Assembly: GCF_964355755.1 (NCBI RefSeq)
Contig: NC_092675.1
Coordinates: 29,846,912-29,910,911, forward strand
Direction: 5' to 3'
DNA: 64,000 nt
Source of the DNA: Antedon mediterranea
Taxonomy: Eukaryota; Echinodermata; Crinoidea; Comatulida; Antedonidae
The position numbers and the translations under genes were made by a program. Below the pieces are notes generated by a model, which did not search any database, had not been told where the DNA came from, and saw nothing but the letters and a program-made list of their open reading frames with translations. Shown here piece by piece: positions 18,901 to 63,906 of this stretch. Position 1 is the stretch's first letter, and each line of letters starts with the position of its first letter.

Positions 18901-21273
18901 ATCCACCTTCATTTGTGTGATTGCGAGCTTGGAAGATCTTGTACAAAAGCGGCTAATTTAGTTTGTCTCGGCCATCGGTCGGCCTTTGCTGCCGCAACAA
19001 AATCCCACAGATTTAGAATGTTGAATTTTTAATGGTTTCAGACGAAGTGCTTGATTGATTAGTGCAGTGAACTTGTTATTTGTTTAAAGTGTACACCTGA
19101 TTTCGGCTAGAATTGTTTCTGATCTTGTTTAGAATAAATCTTTTATTGTCATTAATTTTTTCATAGTCAGCATGTTTTTTTATTTATTTTTATTTATCTA
19201 AAACATATTTATACAGGATAAAAACATATCGGGTATAGATGTAGCACCTGTTTTACATATGGTCCTGTTTTTAGAAAATAAAAGGGTAAACATGCTTGCT
19301 GTTTTTCCCTCAATGTCCTTAATTCATGATAATTCTTGTAATATTATAATTTTTATCTTCATCATTATTAGAATCACCATTAACATATTATATTAACATA
19401 TATGTTTTTCTGCCAAGAAAACAATTATCATTGTACTATGTATGAATGACTTAATTAACGAATCTGAACATTATTAGTAACATCGACCTAGGCATTAATA
19501 CAAAAGAACATTAGGTTTAATTGGAAACATCATTTAACAATTTGTAAGCCAGCTGTCCCTCTCCTTTTCCAAATTCTGTAAACTGACTCTCTTATTCACC
19601 AATATGTAAATCTTAAAAAAATATCATCATCAAAGCTTAAGCTCTGTCTACACTATCAAACTTTATGTGATGATGTGCCCATATATGGTAATGATGAAAT
19701 CATATCACTACCATTTTTAAGCATGTCACTACCATATTTGGGCACATCACACTTTTTTGTCAAACTAGTTTGATAGTGTGGACAGAGCTTTTAGAATATT
19801 TACAGTATTTTATGTTGTTTACTTACTTTTGTCAAACTAGTAGTGTGGACAGAGCTTAAGATGTTGTTTACTTACTTTTGTCAAACTAGTAGTGTAGACA
19901 GAGCTTAAGATGTTGTTTACTTACTTTTGTCAAACTAGTAGTGTAGACAGAGCTTAAGATGTTGTTTACTTACTTTTTTCAAACTAGTAGTGTAGACAGA
20001 GCTTAAGATGTTGTTTACTTACTTTTGTCAAACTAGTAGTGTAGACAGAGCTTAAGATGTTGTTTACTTACTTTTGTCAAACTAGTAGTGTAGACAGAGC
20101 TTAAGATGTTGTTTACTTACTTTTGTCAAACTAGTAGTGTAGACAGAGCTTAAGATGTTGTTTACTTACTTTTTTCAAACTAGTAGTGTAGACAGAGCTT
20201 AAGATGTTGTTTACTTACTTTTGTCAAACTAGTAGTGTAGACAGAGCTTAAGATGTTGTTTACTTTATTTTGTCAAACTAGTAGTGTAGACAGAGCTTAA
20301 GATGTTGTTTACTTACTTTTGTCAAACTAGTAGTGTAGACAGAGCTTAAGATGTTGTTTACTTACTTTTGTCAAACTAGTAGTGTAGACAGAGCTTTAAA
20401 ACATTAACTACTTTTTTTCTTTCTTATTCTATTTTAATGAGATACAGACGTAGATTTAAGGATATGCATTATAATCTTATAAATATACGCACTTTGTACA
20501 GAGTGAAATCAAAAGTTCCCACTAATATTTTATGTCTTGCGTTCTATTGTTATCGTCAACTATCAAATTTCACATTAAGAATTTTATTGTGTCATTGTTA
20601 TTGTTCGTCAGACAATTGAACAGGAAGACAACGGTAGTTAATGATCACGCTTTTCATCGTGAGAAACATCGGAAAAAGACGAGTAAAATACCATCAAAAT
20701 AAATCATGCTATTCTGTGATTATGACGGTGTTTTTGTTGGACCCACTGAAGCAAAATCAGGCCCATATCGGTTCAATCTCATTTAGGATTTATCTTGCCT
20801 TCGCACGTGTCGGAGTGGCCATGCTTAGGATTGTGTTCGTTGAAGCATTAGGAGTTAGGATTTTTGCTTGAGGCTTTGTTTGCTCTGCTAGTTTCAATCT
20901 AGTGTTTGTTTGCGCCGATGTTGCTACTTTCAATACCCCAATGTCTAGTTCATTGAACAGATTTCCAAAGTTTTAATAATCATGTTTAAACTAATTACAA
21001 CTTGTACGTATAGAATTTATTGTCAGGTGTATCAGGGTGTATTGACATTTATGTGTATAAATTGGTAGATTCCCGTAATTGCCAGTGGTCTCAAGTAAAA
21101 AAAAAATCATTTGAATTATTATAAATCCAAAGACAAAGTACTAAAAAATATGATAATGTTGTGGGTATCAATGAACAGATTAAATAAGAAAAAGATAATC
21201 AACACAATAAAAAAAAACAGCCAGAAATAAATTTCAGATATTTCAGGTCCTTCGTCAGTGCAAGTGAAATTGT

Positions 21274-41200: not shown

Positions 41201-43592
41201 TCAAACACCTATAGTGATTATATAACCACTTTAGAAGAATACCAGGTGGGTACCTCATTAACATCTTATTTGCATATTTGTACTGTATTTAGTCAACTTA
41301 AATAATGTTTTTAATCCTCTGTTATTACAAAATGATTTCGGCTAATCATATTTTGTACGAATATCATTAGTATTTCATTCTTTTTAAAAATTAGAGTGTT
41401 ATTGTTACAGGTACAGCGTTATGAAGGGGCATCAACCATCTTTGGACCCCACACATGCCAGGCATATATTAATCAGTTTAAAGCATTAGCTGAGGCTATG
41501 ATTAAGGTACGTTTTTATAAGATACAATTTGCACCTTTTCATAATGTAATTAAGTTTATTTAAAAGAGAAATCATGAATCACTATATTTTTTAATAGTCT
41601 TCATTCTTCCTTTTTTTGCTTAGAATACCAAATTGCCAGCAGGACCAAAGCCTAAACTGTTACTTGATGATCAATTATCATTTGTAACTCCAGTCATTTA
41701 TGATGGTAAGCCAATCGGCAAGGAGTTTGGAGATGTTTTAACGGATGTTGTTGCTGATTACAAGAGGGTAAGATTGGTTGATTTATTTTTATTTCAACAA
41801 TATTTTACGAGGGTGGTCCATCCAGCCAAAGCTGATCTTTAAGGACACTCACAAAAATACAATATGACAAAGAGGAGGTGCATCCAGCCGAAGCTGATCA
41901 TTAAGGACACTCACAAAAATACAATATGACAAGATAAACATGCAAAAATTCAAATTAGATTAAAATAAATTGAATTTATAAAGATAAAAAAAAAAAAATG
42001 CACATAATAAATAGAATCGAAAGGGAAATCAATTAAAACAATGAATGCAAATAAAATGCCCATCTCATAGAGAAAAGACAAAAATTGACAGAAATTGAAA
42101 ACAGAAATTTACTTTTAAATGTTGTTTGTTGTATAACCAGGGAACATGTTTGTTTTACAACCACCTACAACTGGTTCATATACCTATCAAAACCAAGGAA
42201 GACTTGTAATAAGACTTTGTTTATGTAGAGCATCTTGTGTATATGTTTGTTTGAGGGTCCCTAATGATCAGCAATTGCTGGATGGATCACCCTCTTTAAA
42301 TATGGTAAAAAAAAAAAAAAAAGATACTAAAAATGACAGCCATGTGGCCATAATTTTATAAGAACATGAAGAGTAAACCAAAATTAAGCATGTTTGTTAT
42401 TATTTCTCTACCAACTTGTTTTCTTATATTGTTTTGTATCATCATTAAGTTCAGATATTGTTTCTATAGAATACGACAGTGTCTGCTACCTTCCAAGCTG
42501 GTAATCCAAGAAATAATCTGAAAGTAAGTTTTTTTTAATAGATTGGTTTTAGAAAATTTAGTATGTCCTGTTTAGTAGGTCCTGTAGAACAGTATAGTGT
42601 GTTTTATTCTCTTAATTCTCTTTAATTTGATAATACTAGTCTCACTTTCAGGAAATTTCATTTCTAAATTGCACAAACTGCCCTCTGACCAACAACATGA
42701 CTTGGAAAATAATGTCAAATTGTTGTAGGTAAAATATTATATATTATCAACTGCCACTAAAATGTTGATAATACATTGTTTATATTACAGACTGGGGCTA
42801 CGTTCTTATCAGTTGATTACCAAGATAATAGCGGGAAATGGATTCCAAGATATACAGATGCTGATTGGTCTACAAAGTATGAAATAATTACTAATTTATT
42901 CATTTTTTCATTCAACTTTGTTTTTACAAGAGTAGCTGTAACAGCTGAATATTTTTATTTAGTAGCACAAAGAATTTGCATGGCTTTAGTCATGTTACCA
43001 AGTGAAGTTAAGCTCTGTCTACACTATCAAACTAGTTTGACAAAAAAGTGTGATGTGCCCAAATATGGTAGTGATATGCTTAAATATGGTAGTGATGGTG
43101 ACATCATCATATATATGGGCACATCACATTTTTTTGTCACATGAAGTTTGATAGTGTAGACAGAGAAGAGTTGTCAAAACAATATAGATTACCTGATAAC
43201 TTAACCAATGTAAAAGTCCTACAAAGTAGGAAGCCTTTTGCCACTTTCCCCCTGACTGTCTATATTTTTATACTACTTTACAATCACTTTGATTTGTATT
43301 GCATAGAAATAAAGTTCATCAAAACAGACATGTAAATATTCAGAGAAAGTGTATGTTATTATTAATACATTAATGTTCATATTTAATGATAAACATTATT
43401 CAATTTGACAGGTTCATTTGGAAGCGGACATCAACGATTCTTGGTCAGAGTGAGGTGACCATTGAATGGACTATTCCAAGTGATGCTCCAATCGGAACGT
43501 ATCGTTTGAAATACTATGGAGACCACAAACAAGCTGTCACAGAAACAGTACACTCATTTGAAGGCGTCTCCTCTTCTTTCAAAGTTCACTAA
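35281..43592 (+). CDS. ASAH2: Neutral ceramidase, copy 2 (19 exons)
   Basis: Paralogue of the gene at 12951-26498. Exons: 35281-35430, 36326-36475, 36611-36787, 37243-37370, 38081-38158, 38691-38811, 38925-39047, 39253-39339, 39714-39818, 40232-40313, 40509-40621, 40729-40823, 41021-41060, 41144-41245, 41411-41506, 41624-41767, 42470-42523, 42791-42876, 43412-43592. These give 2112 coding bases, 703 aa. Every junction has the same phase as in copy 1 and twelve internal exons have identical length. The N-terminus is a signal peptide or anchor (about 1-27). Zinc-site motifs are SGIHTHSAPAG (about 121-131) and WFAVHCTSMN (His about 233); the usual Pro-Val after that His is Cys-Thr here. The nucleophile motif NLGDVSPN (Ser about 284), VPGEF and RYEGAST are intact. 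The frame is open throughout, so an active enzyme is likely, possibly with altered specificity. Confidence 0.93.
35673..36086 (+). mobile_element. Non-LTR retrotransposon C-terminal fragment
   Basis: In intron 1 of ceramidase 2. The plus strand encodes QQRATKSLSEIK, LKFLGLPTLEYRRLRADMIQ, GTRGHEYKL and FSFSCRVVDSWNSLP, the conserved C-terminal region of CR1/jockey-like reverse transcriptases. It parallels the C-terminal part of the element at 10478-12112 (LGLPTLNYRRRRADIIQVFK there) but belongs to a different element. The frame is open to TAA at 36084-36086; the 5' portion is missing. Confidence 0.85.
36801..36963 (+). mobile_element. MITE family A, copy 6
   Basis: Starts TAAGCTCTGTCTATACTATTAAACTAG (first 20 bases typical) and keeps GTGTGATGTGCCCAAATATGG and GGGCACATCACATTTTTATG. 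The right terminal repeat is heavily altered. It starts 13 bases after the exon 3 donor of ceramidase 2. Confidence 0.82.
36975..37110. repeat. Imperfect inverted repeat, possible small MITE
   Basis: TTCCGTTTCACGGTG near 36990 pairs with CTGTGAAACGGAAC near 37076. The flanking ACACTTAT / ATATAAATGT are also partly complementary. This may be another short foldback element abutting MITE copy 6. Confidence 0.45.
37503..37894 (+). repeat. 19-bp tandem repeat, about 20.6 copies
   Basis: GTATTTTAACATATAAATA repeats with a strict 19-bp period from 37503 to 37894. Variants GTAATTTAAC and GTGTTTTAAC are interspersed in a partly regular pattern. It lies in intron 4 of ceramidase 2. Confidence 0.97.
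40317..40393 (-). mobile_element. MITE family A, copy 7 (partial)
   Basis: AAGCCTTATCCACACTATCA followed by AACTTTATGTGACAAAAAAA and GTGATTTGCCCAAATATGG is the left part of a family A element. The rest is lost. It begins directly after the exon 10 donor of ceramidase 2. Confidence 0.7.
41809..41935 (-). repeat. Two tandem copies of a SINE-like tail
   Basis: CATCCAGCC.AAGCTGATC followed by TAAGGACACTCACAAAAATA occurs twice, from about 41819 and 41881. The sequence resembles the blocks at 835-882 and 42254-42300. It lies in intron 16 of ceramidase 2. Confidence 0.65.
42202..42300 (+). mobile_element. SINE-like fragment
   Basis: GACTTGTAATAAGACTTTGT followed by GTAGAGCATCTTGTGTATAT matches the body of the SINE at 27783-28024. 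It continues into the GATCAGCAATTGCTGGATGG tail seen at 835-882. An A-run follows at 42307-42321. Confidence 0.65.
43011..43166 (+). mobile_element. MITE family A, copy 8
   Basis: Complete copy: AGCTCTGTCTACACTATCAA at the left, two ATATGGTAGTGAT units, GGGCACATCACATTTTTTTG, and AGTTTGATAGTGTAGACAGA at the right. It lies in intron 18 of ceramidase 2. Confidence 0.93.
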
Positions 43593-46674: not shown

Positions 46675-49600
46675 ATGAAGTGGATGTCCTTGTTGCTATG
46701 CATGGTGGCCGTTGCTACGGCGGATAAATTCACAGCACTTGTTGAGCTTGAAAATTCTATTTATATTGAAAATAATATGGTAAATCAATTAAATAGCTAC
46801 ATTCAGGCAGAAGAAAAGAAAATGGAGCATCTTAAAGAGTAAGTAAAATATTTATATCGTTACAAGAATGATATTAATGACCTACACTACAGTATTGTTT
46901 CCACCAAGAGCAACATGATTACGTAGCTATTGAGTGCAACTGTCATTCTGCACATTCTCATATGTTTCTGAGCATGTGCAAAATGACTTTGTTACTTAAT
47001 GATAGGCTCATACCTTAGTGGCGCATCATGAAAACGAATGTACTTATATTGTTACATGACTGTACAACAATCATCTCAACTTTATTTAGGTCATCTTCGT
47101 AAATGATATAAAAAAGCTGTATCTCCCTGATAAAACAGCCAATCAACCATATCTTTCAATACAGTGTGCGATGTGGATTTAAATATATTATACAATTTTA
47201 GTTTAAAAGGATTTAAACTGGTTATTTCCTCGTAGGATAGACAGGCTTTTAGAATAAACACCTTGTTAGAGCAGTTAGTAAGTTTATTTTGCTTGTAGTA
47301 ATGTAAAATAAATGTTTTGTTGAGTATCATTGGTGAGGTCATATAGCCATGAGGTTAGCCTCATGTAGTAAAGATCATATCCATGAGGCCTCTCTAGGGT
47401 TAGCCTCATGTAGTAATTGTTAAGAAAATAATTCATTTAAATGATGAATGATTGATAATCTGGAAAATACATACTACTTTACATGATATTCAATGAAATC
47501 AGAAATGGTTGGTTAAACAGGAGTGTTGAACGCCCTGCTGTGAAACATACTATGACTGTTGTATTCAATGCAACCTTGTCATACCTGACTCAGAAAACAA
47601 GTAGTTTGTGTTGAAACGCAATAACATTTACCAAAATACTGTATACTATACTGTACATTATATAAACAAATTGTATTATTTATTATTACAGTTTTTATTT
47701 ATAATTCATAGATACTATTTTAATGTACAGTGATAATCTTAACCCTTTAAATAATCTCTTCCACTCAACAAAAATCATGCGGCTGATTTACTACAGTATA
47801 AGATATTAATAATATTAATATACGATTTATAAAAGGTTTTCCCTCCCATTTTGTAGCATCTGTACATTATGGCTAGCCAATTTTCATCAATCTTTCAAAA
47901 TTTGGTTGTAGATTCAAAATTATGATTAAAAAAAATATCCTATCCCTGTTCCACTGCCAGGAATCATGGCATCCTATCTTGTCCCACTGAATCAAATTAT
48001 TTCTACTGTAGCATTGGTTTTACATTTCCTTTATGAATCATGGCAAGGAAATACCTAAGGGCCTGTTTCTATAGAGCAGAGAATACGGTTTTGAATACCG
48101 TTCTTTTCAAGAACCGTTTTTTCTTGCCAGCAGAAATGGGTCCCCACAAAAAACCACAAAAAAGAACCGATCTTAAAAACGGTTTCAAAAACCCCAATTT
48201 ATTGCGGTCTCGATCGCAAAGAACCGTTCTGAAACCGGTTTCCGCGGAGCAATTTTTAGCTGCAACATAATCGCGGTCTCAATTTGACCCCAAAAACTGA
48301 ACTCTGCAGTCTGCTGCACTGGGATGATTGCGGTCAACTCGCAGTCAAACTCGCGCGATAGGACCTAGGCCTAAGTCATTTTTATTTCTCTAGATAGTGA
48401 GTATTTTATTTAACTAAAAAATGTTGACCGATGCTATTATGAGGTTCGTAAAAAATATGTGAAGGAAAGAAGATGAGGGGACTTGTCGGGAGTCGGAAGA
48501 AAGACTCGCGTATAATAGGCCTACATGTTTTTAAGAATATTGTAAAGCGTGTGAAAAATAGACAAGTTCAACTTGACAATATCAGAGGGTGCGACGTAGG
48601 CCTACCTATACTTTAACCAAGGACCACAATAACGTTTCAGGTAATAATTCCCCCTTCTATGATGAAATGGATGCTATTTCTTGGGGATCGCGCTATGCGA
48701 AAAAAAGTAAACATGACCTCGATCAAATCGCACTTCCGCCTAACGAACTGCATTGTGGTGTATATAATGACGTCATTCATAACGAACGCACATGGACGGA
48801 ACCGGTTTTATTGGAGTAAAAATTGAGCTGCAACGCGATCTTTATTTATAAACAACAGCCGAAACCGGTTTCCAAAAAACCGTTCTTTTTTTATTTTTCA
48901 ATAGAAACAGGCCCTAAATATACGGTAATTTAACATTTTGTTTGTGCCAAATTCCGGAGTATGAATCAATATTTTACATAATTAATTATCAAACGTCTTA
49001 CTGACAAGCATATTGATCTGTGGAATTTCATAATTATAGAAAGTGTCAGAAAGTATAGACGTCCTTCCTTTTAAATTTATCAATGGTCCTACAGGAAATG
49101 CCAGTATGTTTCCTAGAAAGAATATTAAATCATAGTCTATGTATTGTTAAAGAAATATTTTATTTTTTATTTATTTTATTTCAACACACAGCGAGAAGCC
49201 AATTACAGCATGCCTTACATAAAACAACAAAGCAGAAATATAAAAATATAAAATATCATACAGTACAGAAAGTTAAAAAAGCGTACCAACAGAGTATGCA
49301 ACAGAGCATGAACTTAATATCATTCGATAAGAATTTGTATTGGTATTAATTATTCAGTAGTAAATTTACACACAAAATGTGTAAAATTGTAGGAAACCAG
49401 TAGCCATTCAGTAACTTTTCCAACAGGAAATGGTCAGTTTAATTGACTAGACTACAAGGACGTATGAGTTGCTTTCCCATCTGGGTTGTCTGTAAAACCC
49501 TACAGTGCAATTTGGTGTACTGTACTCTAATTGATGGCCTATGCTTTAGGATAGTAGTTACCAAAATAATACAGGAACAAGGCTAACCAGGTCACGCCCT

Positions 49601-52600
49601 CAATCATCCTAGTTACTAAAATAATATGAATTGCTTTCCAGGTTGGCAAGTAAGTTAACCCGGGTGAGCCAAGAGGCAGTAGAAGACCCTGACCGATACC
49701 TCCATCATCCGGTCAACAGCTTCCTTCTCATCAAACGGTTTCACTATGATTGGCAGGAGGTGGAGAATTTCATTAGACTTGATGAGCCACGCACAGGTAA
49801 GGCTTGTTTACATATTGTATCAATTGATTTACATCTAAAAGCTATACACATGCACTACTATCATTACCTATGTTTTATGTACACTTATGCTGATCTAAAT
49901 CATAAGTAAATCAGCGGTAATTGCTAGTATCACCTCCATGTCGTTAACCCTCTATGTTCAGCCAATAAAACAGAAATTAATTTGGATAAACCACAGTTTC
50001 ACTCTGATAAACTGTAATGTAACTAAAAAATTTATGTAAGAATGTATACATAGTATACAGTACAGTAGCTTCATTTATTCATTTAAAATCTACAAAATTA
50101 TTTCAACCTTTGTACAGACTAGGTGTACAATGTGTGTAATTGAATTATAATCTAGGTCATAGTTTAAACAGAGAAGAGTTGAATTAACTCTTCCCTGGTT
50201 TAAATAACAATTCCATGTGGTAGGGCTACAATCCCGGCTACAATACTTTGATTAATAAGTTTCTATTTTGATAGTCCATTTCACAGTAGCCTCCACTTTT
50301 GTTTTAGGTCAATTCGAGCCTACTTATCTTTGTTTTGTGTTTTTTTATAGATTACATAGCAAACATCTCATCATACAAAGATATTATACCATCAGCCGAA
50401 GATGTTGAGGGCGCTGCTGTGGCATTGCTGAGGTTGCAGGATACGTACAAATTGACGACATCTGCAATATCAAATGGAAGCATACAAGGCACATGGGACA
50501 CAGAACCTCTTTCTGGTATGTGATCATTTGATATTATTAATGTTGGTTTGACTGATTTGATGAATAATGATTGACAGGTGATTCTGACTGACGGATGAAA
50601 TGTTGAGCAATTGACTTAAGCTCTGTCTACACTATCATATGATAAAAAAAGAGTGATGTGCCTAAATATGGTAGTGATATGCTTAAATATGGTAGTGATA
50701 TGACATCATCATGTCCATATATAGGCACATCATATTTTTTTTTCACAAAAATGTTGATAGTGTAGACAGAGCTTTACTTCTTGAGGTTTATTGATTAGCA
50801 ATGATACTTAACATGTAGAGAAGAGACAAGAAACAGGAAAAGGACAATTTGAATGGAAGCTATCAGATTGCTTGTAAAAAGCCAAAATAACTAAACTTCT
50901 CATAAAACTCCTCTGAAAACTAAAACCTTCCCAAACGTCCTATTTCACTCTTACTATTTAAATTGCATGTAAATTAAATTAAATCCGACATTTTGGACCT
51001 GGCCAAGAGTCTCGCGTTTTCTTCTTTTTTTCATTGTTTTTGTAAAAAAGAAATTACAAAATTATTTGTTAAGCCAGCTTAACATTTTACCTCATTCATT
51101 ATAGCTGCCGAGTGTTTTGAGATAGGCCGGGCTGCATACAACAAGGATGATCATTACCACAGTGTACTTTGGATGCAAGAGGCATATAAAAAGATGTTAA
51201 AAGAAGAGAGCACAGATACTAAGAAAATTGTTGTCTTGGACTATTTGGCTTATTCAACATATATGGTACTTTATCCTTTTATTTTGTATTTAAATATGCA
51301 TAATGTTTGTTTAGTGAAAAATTAATTGGTAATGATTTTAATGTTTTTAAGACTTTTTTACAAATTATAATTATATCAAATTCCTAACAAGTATATTTTT
51401 ACTTAAATTATAGCAAGGGAATAAAAATGCAGCTATGATGGTGACAGAAGAACTCCTTAAATTAGGTAAGAATCAGTTAATTTATTAACTTAGATATTCA
51501 AGTTATGTTGTAATGAGGATAAGCTACACTCATTAATATAGTGTATTAGAGTTGAGCTACATCACTCAAATTACAGGGTTATATCATATTATGATTTATT
51601 ATAATATTTCTCGGAAACAAGAAGAAAATCTTGTAAGAAATAATTGTTAACTTTGATTTTATCTGAAAGAAATAAATGTTTATTTGATTTGATATAAATT
51701 GTCAAAAGTTTTTCTTGTGAAAATAAATTGCAATTGAAATACAACCAATGTTTAAACTTGGCCATTTTAAAAACCATATCTGTAACCTTTGACCTTGCAG
51801 ATGACCAGCATGAACGTGCAAAAAGTAATAAAGAATATTTTGAGCATGAAATAGCAAAAGAGAAGAAAGAGAAAGAAGAGAAAAAAGAAGGAGATAACGA
51901 AGATAAAGAAGAAGAAACTGTGGAGGATGAGGACAATGACCTAATGAACATTGCTCCTGGTGATAGACCGTGGAGCGCCCTCAATGAACGTGATCGTTAT
52001 GAAGCTTTGTGTCGTGGAGATGAAAGTGTAGTTAAGGTTTGTATTAAAGTGAAATTTTGTCTTTTAAAAAAAATGTTTACATTTTAAGTTAAAAATACAT
52101 ATTCATATGATGTGAATTTAATATTATGAAATGGTAATGCAGCTTGATTGTTACCTTGCTTTCCAAGTTCTTAGGTCCAAATCCATGCTGTGACACAATA
52201 CCAAGTCTCATAATGTGACAGTTTAGCATGTGTTTAGTTTCTCATTCTTTAAGTGGCAAGTTTGTTTTTTATGTGTGCTGTAATATTTACATTGTTCAAA
52301 TACACCAGACAAATACCAAACACGTTTATGTATATTTGTTATTAGGCTATCATCAATTTGTCTTTGTACACATGTAGTTTGTGAACTGAAACATATGGAC
52401 ACAAACCACCAATTTAATTACTTAATCAAATTATCTTTCATTATCTATTTGAATACATACTTACATGGTGTAGCCATTATTGCTGACTACAGACCTAAGT
52501 GGAAGAATAACTGTGACTTTTAGCTTGAATTGCACACAGGTGTGGACGACAATCTAAGGGTCACTTTGTGTTCTATAGCTGCCACTAAACGGCACCCATG

Positions 52601-55600
52601 TCACCCTCAGCTAAACCCAAGTTTCAATGGAAAGATTTCAAAACATGACCATTTTTTTTTCAAATGTTAGGTTAAAGGGAAACCATGGCAACTAAGATGT
52701 TTCTACAAGCATAACAACGCACCAAGATTATTACTTAGTCCAATCAAAACAGAAGTTGTTTTCAAAAATCCAACTCTATTGTATTACCATGATATAATGG
52801 ATGACAGAGAAATTAAAGTTATCAAGTCATTAGCATTACCAAAGGTAAATAACTTAAATGAAATAACTTAACTGAAATAAATTAAATGAAATAACTTGCT
52901 ATGTATTTTGTTTATTTAAACTCAATTCTATTTGAATATTAAATAAGTATCTTATGAATACAATTTCATGAATACAAAATACACAATTTGTTATAGTTGA
53001 ACAGAGCCACAATTCAAAATCCTAAAACCGGTGTATTAGAATATGCTGAATACCGTATAAGTAAAAGTGCCTGGTTGAAAAGCCATGAACATGCTGTTGT
53101 GCAAAGTGTGAATAATCGTATACAAGATATTACAGGTTTAACAATGGAAACAGCTGAAGAATTACAGGTAGGAAGAACTTTAATATACATCATTATTATA
53201 TTATACATCTGTGTAAGTTAAATGTGTTTAATTTTATTTCGATAATATACATAAAGAAAACACAGATAAGAATAAGTAAACTGCAATCCAGGGCCGTAGC
53301 CAGCAGTACGGTTGGTAAGGTTTCAACATGACCACTTATTCACAGAGGCCTTTGACAACCCAGTGGATTGAACAGAGATTTCACCATTTTCTTGCAAAAA
53401 CTGGACCACTTTATTCCTTGTGGCTGATAGTATGTCCCATATATGACACCATGCTTCAGCAGTTCCACAGCAAATCTCAATAGATATACAGTAGTCCCAT
53501 AAATTGGTCATGTGATAAAATCTATTTTATTGCGACGTCTTGCTATTAGGGCAAGCATCATAAGCCACAGAGACTTCATGGTTGAACAATTTGAAAAACA
53601 TTGTATGAATAAATTATCTTTCCACTTTTCAATTACAGAACTATTTAAAAAAGTATTTCAGCTAAAAGATAACAAAACAAATACTATAATAAAATTATAT
53701 TTATTCATTTCAATAAAAAATGTTATCAAGAGCTCATTTCATAGAGTGCTTATTTTTTTAGGTTGTCAATTACGGAATAGGAGGACAGTATGAACCTCAT
53801 TTTGATTTTGCAAGGGTAAGTAGTAGGTAAATGCGGTTAAAATGGAACAGAATTTCATTAATTGGTACAATCATTTCAAGAAGTTGTATATGAATATATG
53901 TATTACTACATTGAAATAAGATAAAATTGTTTTTACCTTCAAGATGTTAAATTTTACATTTTTTTTACCAAAATGTGTGTAAAAAAGTAAAATTAGAACT
54001 TCTTCTTATTTAAAACGTTCAAAAGTTATTAATATTTATAGTAATAATTTCTGAATTTCTGTTTAATTTAAATTATAGCATACATCAGTACTGTATATTG
54101 TTTGAAATGTTTTTGTATGCAATTAATAATAACATACAGTAGTAGCTACATTTTAATATTAATAATATTGTATTGCATACAATTTATAATTGTTTATATA
54201 TATAAACAGAGAATGTATCCTTTTTCAGGTCAAAGGTTAAGCTTGCTGCTTACATGACCCAAATTCAGTTCTATTCTTTTTATAATCCCCTCATTGTAAG
54301 CATGGAGAAATTAGTATTTCAATTAATATTAAAGTGTGCCTTCACATTTGTTGTTACTATAGGTAACTTATCTATGTTAACTGTAGCATGATTTGTGTTG
54401 TATCAGGGGAGAGTGAGCACTCTTCTCTTCGTTTTGTTGTCTTTTATTTTAGCCACAGCATGGTTTTATTTCGAGCATGATTGATAACACTGGTTTAATG
54501 ATTGTTAGATTTAATTAAAAAGAATATTAATATAGTAATAAATAAAATCAGGGTTTTGCAGGTATATTTCTGTCTTCAACCTAATATTAGATAATTAATG
54601 CGATGTTAGGTATTTTTTTTACTGTATGCTTAATTAGTTTTGTGTAAAATTAAGGAAAAGGATGATCCACTAGAAACTATATGGTTAATTAGTTTTATGT
54701 CAATTGTTGAGGATCGTCAACTGGCACTAACAGGGAAAGTTTATATAATGGATGTAGGATGGTTGATTATATGCAATAGAATTCTTAAACTCAGGAAACC
54801 AGGCTTTCAAAGTTAATGAACTATATAAATATATTTTAGTATTATCAAGGAAGAGTAATATTTACTTTTCTCCAGGACTGTATTATAAAGAAATAAGAAC
54901 ATGTAATGTTTGATGTAATATTTGAGCTGATTTTTTTTACTAGAAAAATAGCAGATACTGTAATAGGGGAACCATTCCATTTAGAATTTATAACCCTGAA
55001 TTAATTATTTAATTTTTCAACTCATAGTTTAATAGTGCGAGTACAGTAGTACTAGAGTACTACTGTAATATTATTAAACTTTAAAGTATGCACTATATGA
55101 ATTTTAGGAGTAATTGCCATTATGGATTTATTTCATTTATTTTTTTTTTCTAAAAGAATGGTTTCATTAGAATTTAAAGCAAGTAGGTTTTGTGCAGGAT
55201 TTTATAAACTCTTATTTATACTTTATTCATATCGTACGATATACTTAGACTTATTAACCACTTATAAGCATGTGCACTTATTTGGCTGAAGGAGATTAGA
55301 TGTTACAGATGTTTTATTGTCTTGCAGAGACCAAATGTTTATAGCGATGGCAATAGATTAGCAACAATGCTATTTTATGTAAGTAACAAGGTGCGCCATT
55401 AGCTGGTAGGATTATTCAGTTATCATTGGTAGTCGGCACGACCCTTGTTACGCCCCTTGTCACGCCCATAATACTTGTATTTAGTACAGAAGCAATCGAA
55501 TGTGTAGTGCTTCTGTTTTGTGTTTACCATTTTACAATTATTTTGTGTGCGTTTCCATGCCATACTACTTTTCTGTGCTTTTCCGTGCCATACCACTGCT

Positions 55601-58600
55601 AACTGAATTTTCCTCCAGCAACTTATTTCTTCATTTTATATAATTATAATTTTTTGTGTTCGTAGAAAGAAGAAGTGAACGCATTCAAAGAACTTGGTAC
55701 TGGTAATAGAATTGCCACACTTCTTTTTTATGTGAGTATGGCAACAGAGAACAGTCGCAAGAACAAAAGCCACTGAGAAAAAAAGCCATTAGACGTTAAA
55801 TTATTACAGAGAGAACTAGATAGTTTTGGACATTTGTTTATTACTTTTTTTATAATTTAATTATATTATTTAATTAAAGTTCTAGACATGAAAATTCAAA
55901 ATATTGAAAATTGATGAATTATCATTTGATTGCTTTTGATTCCTGGTGGCTTTTAGTCTCGCGGCCTTTTGATTTCTACCTCACACTTTGCTGATCAACC
56001 AAGAAAGTCTTTCTTGTGTACACAAAAGTCACGCAGCTTTAACCATAATTATTTACTACTTTCTTGCAATGAATGGACCTTGAGCATGGTTCCCACTAGA
56101 ATGCAACACAGCGATGTATCAACACAAAGTGCTGTATTGCATAATGACAAATGGGTACCAACAACAAAACAGTGTTGCAAGTATCACAGGTTTGATTTCA
56201 AGCAGGCGGGTGAAAATAAAGATGTTGGAAAGGCATTTTCTTACATTGCGTAGGTTGCGTTGTGTCGCTAGTGGCAACCAAGCTTCAAAGGCAACCAGGT
56301 TTAAACAAGTTTGCAGTCTTTTAAGAGGAAAAGCTAAAATGATTCAAGTGATTTTAAATATTAAAAACATGCAATGTATTGTATTCAAATTATACCAAGC
56401 ACCATGTTTATTTATATACTTGCTACTTATAATGTTTCCTAATCATTTTAAATTCCTGGAATAGCATAGGCCAGCACATTGGGTAATTGTTTGATCTGAC
56501 CACTGATGCAAGACCTTCTGTATTGTCTGTTCATGTTCATAATAGCTTGTACTCTAAGGGCCAGGATTTGTTTAACAGGGAATGCTATCATATTAATATT
56601 CTGGCAAAAATAAAGTAGTTCATAATTTTATTTTAGTTAGGGGAATACGCACATCTATCACTCTCCACCTAGCATTACCCACATGGATCCACTCCTGACT
56701 TGAATATTTTTTTTTCGTATTCAATATAACTTGAACTATTTTGTTTTAATTGCTACAACATGCCAGTGAATGCCAGATTATTTGTCACCAAGCAAAGTGT
56801 GTTGGTAAACATAAACAATTTTTAAAAAGTACAATTATGGTTGGTGTGATCAATAATTACATATTGCTACTGTTAAATACAGGGTCTCTAATATTAACAA
56901 TGACATGCACATACTAAGTGTCCAGCTTGTTTAGGAGAGATGTCCAGTGTCACATCTCTACACACTAAAGCACACAAGTTCTTTTTATTAGCCTCATTCT
57001 AGTAATGGAACTTTATTTCTTTTGCTACCATTGGTGTTTTCTTACATTACTTATCAATTTAAACATTGAAACAAGTTAAATGTTATATTTACTCTACTCA
57101 TGCACAATTTGTTTTTGCACTCCAGAAGTTATTTTATATTTTATAACACCATGATGTTGTTCATTATTTGCTCACAATTAGGTGGTTGTACATTGCATGT
57201 TTCAGGTTTTTGTAAAATGTTTCTGAATTTGTTTGAATAAGGTGATGTTGTGGTGCTTCACGTTTTAAGCTGTAAGCTCTGTCTCTACTATCAAACTAGT
57301 TTGACAAAAAAAGTGTGATGTCACTAAATATGGTAGTGATATGCTCAAATATGATAGTGATATGACATCATCATGTCCTTGGACACATCACATAAAGTTT
57401 GATAGTGTAGACAGAGCTTAACTCTGCAGCGTTTACTGATATCCTTTGACGTTCACAGGATAAAACAAATAATGAATGTTTATGAGTAGAATGGAGTCCC
57501 CTGGTTAAATAGACCAGTCCGTCTCATGAAAATAGTTTATCCATTCCACTCATAAAAATTCCTTGTAGATTAATGAATTGGTTCAAATTTAGGTAAATAA
57601 TTTACATTGAAAGAAGATATTTTAATTACCTCTAACACAATTTCAACTAATGATTGATTGGTTTTATTTTTGTCTAAAGATTTTAATTATCTTATCTTCA
57701 ATTTGAATTGCCCTTTGTTTTTTTAGATGAGTGATGTTGAAGCAGGAGGAGCAACAGTCTTTACTGAAGTTGGTGCCAGAATGATGCCAATTAAGGTATG
57801 AATAATTCCAAATAAGGTATGAATGATGCCAAATAAGGTATGAATGATGCCAAATAAGGTATGAATAATACCAAAAATATATGAATAATGCCAAATAAGG
57901 TATGAATGATGCCAAATAAGATATGAATAATGCCAAATAAGGTATGAATAATTCCAAATAAGATATGAATGATTCCAAATAAGGTATGAATGATGCCAAA
58001 TAAGGTATGAATGATGCCAAATAAGGTATGAATGATGCCAAATAAGGTATGAATGATGCCAAATAAGGTATGAATGATGCCAAATAAGGTATGAATGATG
58101 CCAAATAAGGTATGAATGATGCCAAATAAGGTATGAATGATGCCAAATAAGGTATGAATGATGCCAAATAAGGTAGGAATGATGCCAATTAAGGTAAGAA
58201 TGATGCCAAATAAGGTATGAATGATGCCAAATAAGGTATGAATGATGCCAAATAAGGTATGAATGATGCCAAATAAGGTATGAATGATGCCAAATAAGGT
58301 ATGAATGATTCCAAATAAGGTATGAATGATGCCAAATAAGGTATGAATGATGCCAAATAAGGTATGAATGATGCCAAATAAGGTATGAATGATGCCAAAT
58401 AAGGTATGAATGATGCCAAATAAGGTATGAATGATGCCAAATAAGGTAGGAATGATGCCAAATAAGGTAAGAATGATGCCAAATAAGGTATGAATGATGC
58501 CAAATAAGGTATGAATGATGCCAAATAAGGTATGAATGATGCCAAATAAGGTAGGAATGATGCCAAATAAGGTATGAATGATGCCAAATAAGGTATGAAT

Positions 58601-61600
58601 GATGCCAAATAAGGTATGAATGATGCCAAATAAGGTAGGAATGATTCCAAATAAGGTAGGAATGATTCCAAATAAGGTATGAATGATGCCAAATAATGTA
58701 TGAATGATGCCAAATAATGTATGAATAATGCCAAATAAGGTATGAACGATTCCAAATAAGGTATGAACGATTCCAAATAAGGTATGAACGATGCCAAATA
58801 AGGTAAGAACGATGCCAAATAATGTAAGAACGATGCCAAATAATGTAAGAACGATGCCAAATAAGGTATGAATAATGCCAAATAAGGTATGAATGATTCC
58901 AAATAAGATATGAATGATTCCAAATAAGGTATGAATGATTCCAAATAAGATATGAATGATTCCAAATAAGATATGAATGATTCCAAATAAGGTATGAATG
59001 ATTCCAAATAAGGTATGAATGATGCCAAATAAGGTATGAATGATGCCAAATAAGGTATGAATGATTCCAAATAAGGTATGAATGATGCCAAAAAAGGTAT
59101 GAATGATGCCAAATAAGGTATGAATGATGCCAAATAAGGTAAGAATGATGCCAAATAAGGTAAGAATGATGCCAAATAAGGTATGAATGATGCCAAATAA
59201 GGTATGAATGATGCCAAATAAGGTATGAATGATGCCAAATAAGGTAAGAATGATGCCAAATAAGGTATGAATGATGCCAAATGAGGTATGAATGATGCCA
59301 AATGAGGTATGAATGATGCCAAATGAGGTATGAATGATGCCAAATGAGGTATGAATGATGCCAAATGAGGTATGAATGATGCCAAATGAGGTATGAATGA
59401 TGCCAAATGAGGTATGAATGATGCCAAATGAGGTATGAATGATGCCAAATGAGGTATGAATGATGCCAAATGAGGTATGAATGATGCCAAATGAGGTATG
59501 AATGATGCCAAATGAGGTATGAATGATGCCAAATGAGGTATGAATGATGCCAAATGAGGTATGAATGATGCCAAGTGAGGTATGAATGATGCCAAGTGAG
59601 GTATGAATGATGCCAAGTGAGGTATGAATGATGCCAAGTGAGGTATGAATGATGCCAAGTGAGGTATGAATGATGCCAAGTAAGGTATGAATGATGCCAA
59701 ATAAGGTATGAATGATGCCAAATAAGGTATGAATGATGCCAAATAAGGTATGAATGATGCCAAATAAGGTATGAATGATGCCAAATAAGGTATGAATGAT
59801 GCCAAATAAGGTATGAATGATGCCAAATAAGGTATGAATGATGCCAAATAAGGTATGAATGATGCCAAATAAGGTATGAATGATGCCAAATAAGGTATGA
59901 ATGATGCCAAATAAGGTATGAATGATGCCAAATAAGGTATGAATGATGCCAAATAAGGTATGAATGATGCCAAATAAGGTATGAATGATGCCAAATAAGG
60001 TATGAATGATGCCAAATAAGGTATGAATGATGCCAAATAAGGTATGAATGATGCCAAATAAGGTATGAATGATGCCAAATAAGGTATGAATGATGCCAAA
60101 TAAGGTATGAATGATGCCAAATAAGGTATGAATGATGCCAAATAAGGTATGAATGATGCCAAATAAGGTATGAATGATGCCAAATAAGGTATGAATGATG
60201 CCAATTGAGGTATGAATGATGCCAATTGAGGTATGAATGATGCCAATTGAGGTATGAATGATGCCAATTGAGGTATGAATGATGCCAATTGAGGTATGAA
60301 TGATGCCAATTGAGGTATGAATGATGCCAATTGAGGTATGAATGATGCCAATTGAGGTATGAATGATGCCAAGTGAGGTATGAATGATGCCAAGTGAGGT
60401 ATGAATGATGCCAAATGAGGTATGAATGATGCCAAATGAGGTATGAATGATGCCAAATGAGGTATGAATGATGCCAAATGAGGTATGAATGATGCCAAAT
60501 GAGGTATGAATGATGCCAAATGAGGTATGAATGATGCCAAGTGAGGTATGAATGATGCCAAGTGAGGTATGAATGATGCCAAGTGAGGTATGAATGATGC
60601 CAAGTGAGGTATGAATGATGCCAAGTGAGGTATGAATGATGCCAAGTGAGGTATGAATGATGCCAAGTGAGGTATGAATGATGCCAAGTGAGGTATGAAT
60701 GATGCCAAGTGAGGTATGAATGATGCCAAGTGAGGTATGAATGATGCCAAGTGAGGTATGAATGATGCCAAGTGAGGTATGAATGATGCCAAGTGAGGTA
60801 TGAATGATGCCAATTGAGGTATGAATGATGCCAAGTGAGGTATGAATGATGCCAAGTGAGGTATGAATGATGCCAAATGAGGTATGAATGATGCCAAATG
60901 AGGTATGAATGATGCCAAATGAGGTATGAATGATGCCAAATGAGGTATGAATGATGCCAAATGAGGTATGAATGATGCCAAATGAGGTATGAATGATGCC
61001 AAATGAGGTATGAATGATGCCAAATGAGGTATGAATGATGCCAAATGAGGTATGAATGATGCCAAATGAGGTATGAATGATGCCAAATGAGGTATGAATG
61101 ATGCCAAATGAGGTATGAATGATGCCAAATGAGGTATGAATGATGCCAAATGAGGTATGAATGATGCCAAATGAGGTATGAATGATGCCAAATAAGGTAT
61201 GAATGATGCCAAATAAGGTATGAATGATGCCAAATAAGGTATGAATGATGCCAAATAAGGTATGAATGATGCCAAATAAGGTATGAATGATGCCAAATGA
61301 GGTATGAATGATGCCAAATGAGGTATGAATGATGCCAAATGAGGTATGAATGATGCCAAATGAGGTATGAATGATGCCAAATGAGGTATGAATGATGCCA
61401 AGTGAGGTATGAATGATGCCAAATAAGGTATGAATGATGCCAAATGATGTATGAATGATGCCAAATGAGGTATGAATGATGCCAAATGAGGTATGAATGA
61501 TGCCAAGTGAGGTATGAATGATGCCAAGTGAGGTATGAATGATGCCAAGTGAGGTATGAATGATGCCAAGTGAGGTATGAATGATGCCAAGTGAGGTATG

Positions 61601-63906
61601 AATGATGCCAAATGAGGTATGAATGATGCCAAATGAGGTATGAATGATGCCAAATAAGGTATGAATGATGCCAAATAAGGTATGAATGATTCCAAATGAG
61701 GTATGAATGATTCCAAATGAGGTATGAATGATGCCAAGTGAGGTATGAATGATGCCAAGTGAGGTATGAATGATGCCAATTAAGGTAGGAATGATGCCAA
61801 ATAAGGTAGGAATGATGCCAATTAAGGTAGGAATGATTCCAAATAAGGTATGAATGATTCCAAATAAGGTATGAATGATTCCAAATAAGGTATGAATGAT
61901 TCCAAATAAGGTATGAATGATTCCAAATAAGGTATGAATGATTCCAAATAAGGTATGAATGATTCCAAATAAGGTATGAATGATTCCAAATAAGGTATGA
62001 ATGATGCCAAATAAGGTATGAATGATGCCAAATAAGGTATGAATGATGCCAAATAAGGTATGAATGATGCCAAATAAGGTATGAATGATGCCAATTAAGG
62101 TATGAATGATGCCAATTAAGGTATGAATGATGCCAATTAAGGTGCATGAATGATGCCAATTAAGGTGCATGAATGATGCCAAATAAGGTGCATGAATGAT
62201 GCCAAATAAGGTGCATGAATGATGCCAAATAAGGTGCATGAATGATGCCAAATAAGATATGAATGATGCCAAATAAGGTATGAATGATGCCAAATAAGGT
62301 ATGAATGATGCCAAATAAGGTATGAATGATGCCAAATAAGGTATGAATGATGCCAAATAAGGTATGAATGATGCCAATTGAGGTATGAATGATGCCAAAT
62401 GAGGTATGAATGATGCCAAGTGAGGTATGAATGATGCCAAATGAGGTATGAATGATGCCAAATGAGGTATGAATGATGCCAAATGAGGTATGAATGATGC
62501 CAAATGAGGTAAGAATGATGCCAAATGAGGTATGAATGATGCCAAATGAGGTATGAATGATGCCAAATGAGGTATGAATGATGCCAAATGAGGTATGAAT
62601 GATGCCAAATGAGGTATGAATGATGCCAAATGAGGTATGAATGATGCCAAATGAGGTATGAATGATGCCAAATGAGGTATGAATGATTCCAAATGAGGTA
62701 TGAATGATGCCAAATGAGGTATGAATGATGCCAAATGAGGTATGAATGATGCCAAATGAGGTATGAATGATGCCAAATGAGGTATGAATGATGCCAAATG
62801 AGGTATGAATGATGCCAAATGAGGTATGAATGATGCCAAATGAGGTAAGAATGATGCCAAATGAGGTAAGAATGATGCCAAATGAGGTATGAATGATGCC
62901 AAATGAGGTATGAATGATGCCAAATGAGGTATGAATGATGCCAAATGAGGTATGAATGATGCCAAATGAGGTATGAATGATGCCAAATGAGGTATGAATG
63001 ATGCCAAATGAGGTATGAATGATGCCAAATGAGGTATGAATGATGCCAAATGAGGTATGAATGATGCCAAATGAGGTAAGAATGATGCCAAATGAGGTAA
63101 GAATGATGCCAAATGAGGTAAGAATGATGCCAAATGAGGTATGAATGATGCCAAATGAGGTATGAATGATGCCAAATGAGGTATGAATGATGCCAAATGA
63201 GGTATGAATGATGCCAAATGAGGTATGAATGATGCCAAATGAGGTATGAATGATGCCAAATGAGGTATGAATGATGCCAAATGAGGTATGAATGATGCCA
63301 AATGAGGTATGAATGATGCCAAATGAGGTATGAATGATGCCAAATGAGGTATGAATGATGCCAAATGAGGTATGAATGATGCCAAATGAGGTATGAATGA
63401 TGCCAAGTAATGTATGAATGATGCCAAGTAATGTATGAATGATTCCAAATAATGTATGAATGATTCCAAATAATGTATGAATGATTCCAAATAAGGTATG
63501 AATGATGCCAAATAAGGTATGAATGATGCCAAATAAGGTATGAATGATGCCAAATAAGGTATGAATGATGCCAAATAAGGTATGAATGATGCCAAATAAG
63601 GTAGGAATGATGCCAAATAAGGTAGGAATGATGCCAATTAAGGTATGAGTAGTTTACATGCTCCTACGAAAACCTCCTAATATAATTATCCCTAAAAAGT
63701 GTGCAAATTGGGTGAGAATAAATTATAAATACAAGAAGCTTTAAATCTAAAAACTCAAGGTAATTTACTCAACTGTTTTAAAATGATGATATTGTTTGCT
63801 ATCTTTCAGAAATCCGCAGCATTTTGGTACAATTTGTATAAGTCTGGAGAAGGTGATTTGTTAACAAGACATGCTGGATGTCCTGTACTGGCTGGCACTA
63901 AATGGG
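46675..63906 (+). CDS. P4HA: Prolyl 4-hydroxylase alpha subunit (last exon beyond window)
   Basis: ER-lumen Fe(II)/2-oxoglutarate dioxygenase that, with protein disulfide isomerase as beta subunit, hydroxylates collagen prolines. Coding exons: 46675-46838, 49642-49796, 50351-50515, 51105-51265, 51414-51465, 51801-52036, 52671-52844, 52997-53167, 53762-53815, then 55328-55378 or 55666-55731, then 57727-57795 and 63810-63906. About 521 aa are encoded; human P4HA1 has 534, so only about 19 residues are missing at the right edge. A signal peptide spans 1-16 (MKWMSLLLCMVAVATA). The N-terminal dimer region, the TPR-like peptide-binding domain (about 108-250) and a very acidic/Lys-Glu-rich linker in exon 51801-52036 follow. 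Iron ligands are HFD (His439, Asp441) and His510 in TRHAGCP. The 2-oxoglutarate Lys is Lys520 (numbering with the 66-base alternative exon). The intron after 57795 is the giant minisatellite. Confidence 0.93.
46839..49641 (+). other. P4HA intron after first coding exon
   Basis: Holds a short imperfect direct repeat near 47345-47415 (GGTTAGCCTCATGTAGTAA twice) and the inverted-repeat element at 48059-48914. No additional exon is visible. The weak open frame at 49083-49349 is AT-rich and not coding in appearance. Confidence 0.55.
48059..48914. mobile_element. Non-autonomous PIF/Harbinger-like DNA transposon
   Basis: The ends are GGGCCTGTTTCTATAGAG at the left and CAATAGAAACAGGCCC at the right, a 14-bp perfect terminal inverted repeat. 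They are flanked by TAA on both sides (48056-48058 and 48915-48917). Subterminal AACGGTTTT / AAAACCGTT motifs are also inverted. A 3-bp TAA target duplication with GGGCCTGTTT-type ends is characteristic of the PIF/Harbinger superfamily. The 856-bp interior carries short open frames (48040-48270, 48589-48819) without transposase motifs. Confidence 0.8.
50619..50774 (+). mobile_element. MITE family A, copy 10
   Basis: Left end AGCTCTGTCTACACTATCAT, two ATATGGTAGTGATATG units, CATCATGTCCATATATAGGC, right end GTTGATAGTGTAGACAGAGC. It lies in a P4HA intron (50516-51104). Confidence 0.92.
55328..55378 (+). other. P4HA: P4HA alternative exon, type a (51 bases)
   Basis: Flanked by TTGCAG and GTAAGT, phase 0 on both sides, encoding RPNVYSDGNRLATMLFY. 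It resembles the vertebrate P4HA1 alternative exon containing the GNRLAT sequence. Its reading frame fits between 53815 and 57727 equally well as the next exon. Including both would insert a repeated segment into the catalytic domain. Confidence 0.85.
55666..55731 (+). other. P4HA: P4HA alternative exon, type b (66 bases)
   Basis: Flanked by TTCGTAG and GTGAGT, phase 0 on both sides, encoding KEEVNAFKELGTGNRIATLL and FY. The FKELGTGNRIAT core is the same as in the other vertebrate P4HA1/P4HA2 alternative exon. It is the partner of the exon at 55328-55378; the two are expected to be mutually exclusive. Confidence 0.87.
56083..56285. mobile_element. MITE family B, copy 2
   Basis: The left end AGCATGGTTCCCACTAGAAT and right end GTCGCTAGTGGCAACCAAGC are inverted repeats. 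Subterminal GCAACACAGCGA pairs roughly with TTGCGTTGTGTCGC. The ends match the copy at 16394-16550. Confidence 0.75.
57274..57419 (+). mobile_element. MITE family A, copy 11
   Basis: Left end AAGCTCTGTCTCTACTATCA, two ATATG.TAGTGATATG units, CATCATGTCC, right end GTTTGATAGTGTAGACAGAG. It lies in the P4HA intron before exon 57727-57795. A short internal piece is missing relative to other copies. Confidence 0.92.
57781..63648 (+). repeat. 21-bp minisatellite (about 279 copies) made from an exon-intron junction
   Basis: The unit is ATGATGCCAAATAAGGTATGA with position variants (AAATAAG, AAATGAG, AAGTGAG, AATTGAG, AATTAAG; GTATGA, GTAAGA, GTAGGA). The first unit begins inside the P4HA exon: 57781-57795 is coding (Met-Met-Pro-Ile-Lys) and 57796 onward is intron. 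The intronic part spans about 5850 bp and fills nearly the whole intron up to 63648. Variants occur in blocks, for example AATTGAG at about 60200-60360 and AAGTGAG at about 60540-60810. Five consecutive units at 62142-62255 carry GTGCATGA, two bases longer. Confidence 0.97.
63649..63809 (+). other. Remaining intron and acceptor before the next P4HA exon
   Basis: Ordinary AT-rich intron sequence of about 160 bases, ending in the acceptor TATCTTTCAG. It is the only non-repetitive part of this intron. Confidence 0.8.

Follow-up and report, generated by a model that had tools for sequence, protein, structure and literature searches.

A mirage-type minisatellite of 279 donor-like units at an exon-intron junction of a crinoid P4HA gene

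Minisatellites that span exon-intron boundaries have been described in amphioxus under the name of "mirages", in the globin genes BflGb6 and BflGb9 (PMC3087553) and in Adh3 (Canestro et al. 2002, as cited), and those of troponin C and PGBD5 were added to them (PMC3902484). RT-PCR suggests that regular splicing is undisturbed by mirages, though many of their copies carry AG/GT (PMC3087553), and no aberrant mRNAs were found in the genes studied (PMC3902484). The human IFI6 gene (6-16/G1P3) carries a minisatellite with multiple splice donors (Turri et al. 1995, cited in PMC4526556), of which two downstream repeat units are used, according to the citing paper, resulting in alternative isoforms (PMC4526556). 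Boundary tandem repeats are also known from human duplicated genes (PMC2812944), and a new intron can arise when a segment containing AGGT is duplicated in tandem (PMC4974935).

The P4HA gene of the crinoid Antedon mediterranea contains a very large example of the mirage phenomenon already described, and every structural feature tested was found in it: the repeat unit spans the exon-intron boundary of a real gene, the array beginning 17 bases inside the exon; the copies carry splice signals, 272 of the 279 units having kept GT at the donor position and 263 having kept AG|GT; and the interior of the array has evolved in concert, with the boundary copies excluded. The scale is different, as BflGb6 has 3-6 copies and the P4HA array has 279, over 5.87 kb. 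As in IFI6, a donor-like repeat unit is found at the end of an exon, and AAG|GTATGA and its variants pair with the 5′ end of the U1 RNA of this genome; however, downstream units of IFI6 are used and yield isoforms, whereas in P4HA any downstream donor is predicted to bring in a premature stop. The IFI6 minisatellite has about 26 twelve-bp units, a copy number much lower than that of the P4HA array. In AGGT-mediated intron gain, too, tandem duplication of an AG|GT segment changes gene structure, but there a new intron is made, while in P4HA an existing one was lengthened.

The host gene and its array

P4HA was assembled by hand from 13 exons lying in the window (the whole stretch of 64,000 nt that was analysed) and one just beyond it, all on the plus strand. 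The upstream exons, covering the approximate range 46675-57731, were placed by joined-exon translation, Pfam domains and the match to human P4HA2, and comprise 46675-46838, 49642-49796, 50351-50515, 51105-51265, 51414-51465, 51801-52036, 52671-52844, 52997-53167 and 53762-53815, followed by an alternative pair (RPNVYSDGNRLATMLFY, KEEVNAFKELGTGNRIATLLFY) at 55328-55378 and 55666-55731, either member of which keeps the frame; the two are probably mutually exclusive. Downstream of this pair lies the exon at which the array starts, 57727-57795 (MSDVEAGGATVFTEVGARMMPIK), in phase 0, with acceptor gtttttttag and donor AAG|gtatga, its last 17 bases being the first of the array. The authentic 5′ splice site, GTATGA, occupies 57796-57801 and includes an in-frame TGA (57799-57801). 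Beyond the array, an ordinary intron remainder of 161 nt (63649-63809), with acceptor tatctttcag at its end, leads to the next exon, 63810-63906 (KSAAFWYNLYKSGEGDLLTRHAGCPVLAGTKW), which presumably carries the distal iron-binding His and the 2-oxoglutarate Lys; the last exon, just outside the window, is at 64289-64359 if the numbering is continued. The array-bearing intron thus measures 6014 nt, 5853 nt of array and 161 nt of ordinary sequence.

The joined exons form an open frame without a stop, of 544 aa with exon 55666-55731 and 539 aa with exon 55328-55378, containing the P4Ha_N, TPR_P4H and 2OG-FeII_Oxy_3 domains (Pfam); the catalytic part matches human P4HA2 (7zsc) with E=1.4e-97. Because the alignment with the human protein crosses the array-exon junction without a gap (ggatvftevgarmmpikksaafwynl vs ggatvfpdlgaaiwpkkgtavfwynl), the exon end at 57795 is the one demanded by the protein, and this homology argues against an exon ending elsewhere. 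The integrity of the gene suggests that P4HA works. No second P4HA was seen, PF08336 being found solely in this gene by a search that can miss weak matches; one locus considered as a paralogue for comparison (L067) was set aside, as it looked like an EGLN-type hydroxylase.

Tandem Repeats Finder, run on the window, places the array on the plus strand at 57779-63648, with a period of 21, 279.1 copies and 97% matches, and segmentation divides it into exactly 279 units of GAATGATGCCAAATAAGGTAT and its variants, with 32 distinct sequences. The first-pass annotation, which had reported a 21-bp unit repeated about 279 times in this intron, is borne out in this respect and in the end of the array, but the start it gave, 57781, has to be moved to 57779. 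It had also described the unit as 15 exon bases plus 6 intron bases; with GA present at each end of the segment that was duplicated, this is the same unit as 17 plus 4. Unit spacings are 21 bp in 272 cases, 23 bp in five and 20 bp in one. The units without GT at the donor place are 5, 7, 9, 54, 56, 57 and 213, so that the authentic donor is followed by about 271 near-copies of itself in the same intron; positions -1, +1 and +4 of the donor are among those that vary between units.

The first 23 bases of the array, 57779-57801, span the exon tail and the donor (GAATGATGCCAATTAAGGTATGA) and, by sequence comparison and the variant map, are identical to its last unit on the plus strand, 63626-63648, which we presume to be a copy of the ancestral junction. 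AATT is found at both edges of the array and in few inner units, most units having AAAT, AAGT or similar. Neighbouring units are identical in 68% of cases and units 20 apart in 18%; units 208-212 are five consecutive 23-bp copies with one common 2-base insertion, and the units of the 5′ edge are more diverged. A search of the 354-Mb genome (18 contigs) with a 31-base pattern of one and a half units, allowing up to 3 mismatches, gave 268 forward matches; among the 100 matches listed, every one falls inside the P4HA array, to which the unit is therefore specific as far as these matches show. The same whole-genome search gave 0 reverse matches, and 0 for a reversed-pattern control.

On the minus strand, an open frame of 1478 codons (57723-62159) encodes a YLIWHHS-like heptapeptide; it is not evidence of a gene, since any repeat of 21 bp that lacks a stop in the frame concerned would give a long open frame of this kind. 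Also dispersed in the window is a short element that has inverted ends (AGCTCTGTCTACACTATCAAAC) and was matched 16 times where no match was expected, with sites at 57273-57420, 7935, 14451-14611, 14823-14977, 19640-19789, 43011-43167 and 50619-50773, and one end of it appears to have been amplified into an array of 12 copies of 49 bp at 19812-20396.

Donor choice and its consequences

How the spliceosome settles on one of several equal donors has long been asked, for the most part with a small number of engineered sites. We computed pairing of the array donors against the genome's own U1 5′ end (ATACTTACCTG), from 42 scored U1 genes of a tandem cluster on contig C5. This cluster holds at least 42 U1 snRNA genes (C5:15664856-15752909), mostly about 1.7-1.9 kb apart, and in those copies that were read the 5′ end is canonical. 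The authentic donor is one of 241 array donors with about equal computed pairing, and 22 decoys pair better than it does. Six decoys reading AAG|GTAAGA, with their +1 bases at 58194, 58467, 58803, 59139, 59160 and 59244 (58191-59249, plus strand), reach -9.5 kcal/mol, compared with -5.7 for the authentic site; six more units read GAG|GTAAGA (62509-63118). The stronger AAG|GTAAGA units had been noticed in the first-pass annotation, correctly near 58194, though the positions 58482 and 59150 do not hold. Donor strength was rejected as the reason for first-donor choice, given the 22 decoys computed to be stronger for U1.

Local RNA structure fared no better. A GGUAU-GAAUG-AUGCC hairpin is possible in most units, at a computed -5.2 kcal/mol, and its counterpart behind the authentic donor is much weaker (-0.5 kcal/mol); however, when opening was calculated from the partition function at three window sizes, the first donor did not stand out, ranking 241, 77 and 208 of 272, and with so unremarkable an opening accessibility does not account for the choice. 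Three of the seven GT-less units are among units 2-10 (hypergeometric p=0.0008), which might be read as purging of GT near the real donor, but edge decay explains it, as the 5′ edge has diverged at other positions too.

Since neither U1 pairing nor RNA opening favours the authentic donor, position must decide, if the gene works. The simplest known rule to fit a positional choice, reached in this way by elimination, would be exon definition from the upstream acceptor, across an exon of 69 nt. A preference for the intron-proximal donor has been reported for some duplicated sites, and would predict the opposite choice. The use of downstream repeat units in IFI6, which shows that such units can serve as donors, also speaks against sole use of the first donor.

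The choice would be of consequence for the protein. The first intron codons after the exon are GTA TGA, and with any later donor the in-frame TGA at 57799-57801 would be retained in the mRNA, so that the computed translation ends in ...MMPIKV*, ahead of the exon with the distal iron ligand; the first donor alone joins the exons without a gap relative to human P4HA2. Truncation by any downstream donor, as claimed from the first reading of the sequence, is supported by this computed translation, and the associated statement that correct expression needs the first donor is likewise supported, insofar as it can be predicted from the frame. The peptide MMPNKV* that was ascribed to each unit is indeed encoded by most of them, but the actual stop is another, the first TGA ending translation whichever later donor is used. 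Transcripts from later donors are expected to undergo NMD, because at least one exon junction lies more than 55 nt past the stop.

Origin of the array and alternative readings

The P4HA array is very probably a mirage-type minisatellite that arose from the exon-intron junction, with its later copies falling into the intron and the first donor being used by virtue of its position. The proposal that it was born from a 5′ splice site is supported by the exon homology and by the identical exon-spanning first and last copies. Given the codon-by-codon homology of the exon tail with human P4HA2, the repeat derives from the exon and not the exon from the repeat. Tandem duplication followed by unit-by-unit expansion would account for the identical edge copies, the homogenisation in blocks and the run of 23-bp units. 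About 21 bp spanning the junction, AGAATGATGCCAATTAAG|GTATGAGTAG, would have been duplicated in tandem, and the array would then have grown unit by unit, old copies staying at its edges. With coding bases and a functional donor both preserved in the exon-adjacent copy, all later copies would have become intronic, and the intron would have lengthened from about 167 nt to 6014 nt, about 36 times its former length, with its own splice site as the source. The spliceosome most likely recognises the exon-adjacent donor from where it lies and not from how strong it is, the other copies leaving with the intron, so the array would be tolerated and its growth nearly neutral. The ancestral empty site in relatives would be predicted to read ...CCAATTAAG|GTATGAGTAGTTTACATG.

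Several other readings were weighed against this origin. Downstream donors might be used at a regulated rate, as in IFI6, so that truncated NMD-sensitive transcripts set P4HA output; we regard this as improbable. Every downstream donor does give ...MMPIKV*, 22 decoys surpass the authentic donor in computed U1 pairing, and two downstream units are used in IFI6, but strong donors show no conserved arrangement close to the exon, the GTAAGA and GTAGGA variants are absent from the first 18 units after it, and amphioxus mirages produce no aberrant mRNAs in the genes studied (PMC3902484). There is only a slim chance that the array is functional and selected, holding U1 on the nascent transcript as a sink, a timer or a protection from premature polyadenylation. 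It does offer 272 GT donors in one intron, and it contains no AATAAA or ATTAAA, while the rest of the window has about 22 per 5.85 kb, so that premature polyadenylation inside it is unlikely; however, this absence follows from the unit sequence alone, and the donor is not specially conserved, its -1, +1 and +4 positions being variable. U1 is present at about a million per nucleus, and 272 sites per transcript would therefore be a small sink. The same structure in unrelated genes (DHX8, TDP2 and UTP6; see below) is as expected of a mutational process, and the functions as U1 sink, timer or source of nonsense transcripts suggested in the first-pass annotation are unsupported and not needed to explain the array.

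It is extremely unlikely that the repeat originated at another place in the intron and came to resemble the exon end secondarily, for example by conversion of the exon. The exon tail has diverged from the human one (MMPI vs WPK), as such conversion would allow, yet its alignment with human P4HA2 is gap-free and codon for codon, AATT is characteristic of the two array edges rather than of the inner units, and other genes have the same layout with the array edge in the exon. An assembly artefact or a pseudogene has next to no probability: long arrays are error-prone in assembly, and the exact copy number could be off, but the variants stand in ordered blocks instead of repeating one copied unit, and the P4HA frame is open and complete at 544 aa.

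Similar arrays elsewhere in the genome

Tandem arrays containing AGGTAAG, CAGGTAAGT, AGGTGAGT, AGGTATGT or AGGTAAGA were sought across the genome, the matches listed covering mainly contigs C1-C4, and multi-locus satellites were set aside. Seven of about 21 single-locus donor-motif arrays examined start at the end of an exon, with the exon tail inside the unit. Protein homology confirms three of these. In DHX8 (C1:17.776 Mb, 37-bp units) the joined exons align with human DHX8 gap-free over 102/102 residues; in TDP2 (C1:41.208 Mb, 29 copies of 31 bp) homology extends over the junction with E=3.9e-35; and the UTP6 array (C1:0.455 Mb, 31-bp units) has a homologous protein at E=4.9e-8. Four further loci (L066, L072, L077 and L080) are probable cases, having donor arrays at putative exon ends and an open frame from an acceptor-like AG to the first donor; the L077 exon has a weak TPR match. 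In computed translation, transcripts spliced at a later donor would meet a stop in 8 of 8 genes, P4HA included. Two more arrays are situated 22 bp and about 50 bp into the intron and exclude the exon (L060, in a nucleotide-sugar transporter gene, and L059). At C2:634.6-638.1 kb, the donor array at the TPR-like exon (L077 and L078) seems to be interrupted by different sequence of about 2.6 kb, which may have been inserted into it.

Arrays of the reversed motif GAATGGA, taken as a control, were found at exon ends in 0 of 6 cases, compared with 7 of 21 for donor motifs, an underpowered comparison (Fisher p=0.15), and AGGTAAG is not enriched among the minisatellites of the genome, with 796 hits vs 862 for the reversed motif, hits not being independent. 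Arrays at 3′ splice sites were fewer, 1 of 18, the single case being in DDX54, vs 7 of 21 (p=0.049, with motif coverage differing between the two), which is suggestive of an asymmetry in favour of 5′ sites. Arrays that arise by chance in a genome rich in minisatellites, and are tolerated because the copy next to the exon stays intact, would agree with these data; we do not claim attraction of arrays to splice sites.

We tentatively consider, as a possibility that is less than even, that in unrelated genes of one genome, each with tens to hundreds of near-identical donors, the exon-adjacent copy alone is used, the choice being set almost wholly by position and hardly by donor sequence, U1 pairing or local RNA structure. 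Junction counts along such arrays would tell rules based on position apart from those based on strength: P4HA supplies 272 natural donors whose local surroundings are almost alike, in a gene in which a wrong choice destroys the protein, and there are unrelated replicates in DHX8 (a splicing helicase), TDP2 and UTP6. The P4HA array is also liable to mislead gene prediction and assembly from short reads.

At the 3′ splice site of DDX54 (L100, C1:41235840-41236440), we observed a three-copy repeat with a unit that includes the acceptor and the first exon bases. Multi-locus satellites with strong donor motifs in their units occur at C3:20-23.7 Mb and C4:17.6-19.5 Mb, the units being a 34-mer (AGGTGAGTAACATTAGATCATT...), a 23-mer (AGGTATGTACACACTATAACAAA) and a 36-mer (AGGTAAGATAGTCTCAG...).
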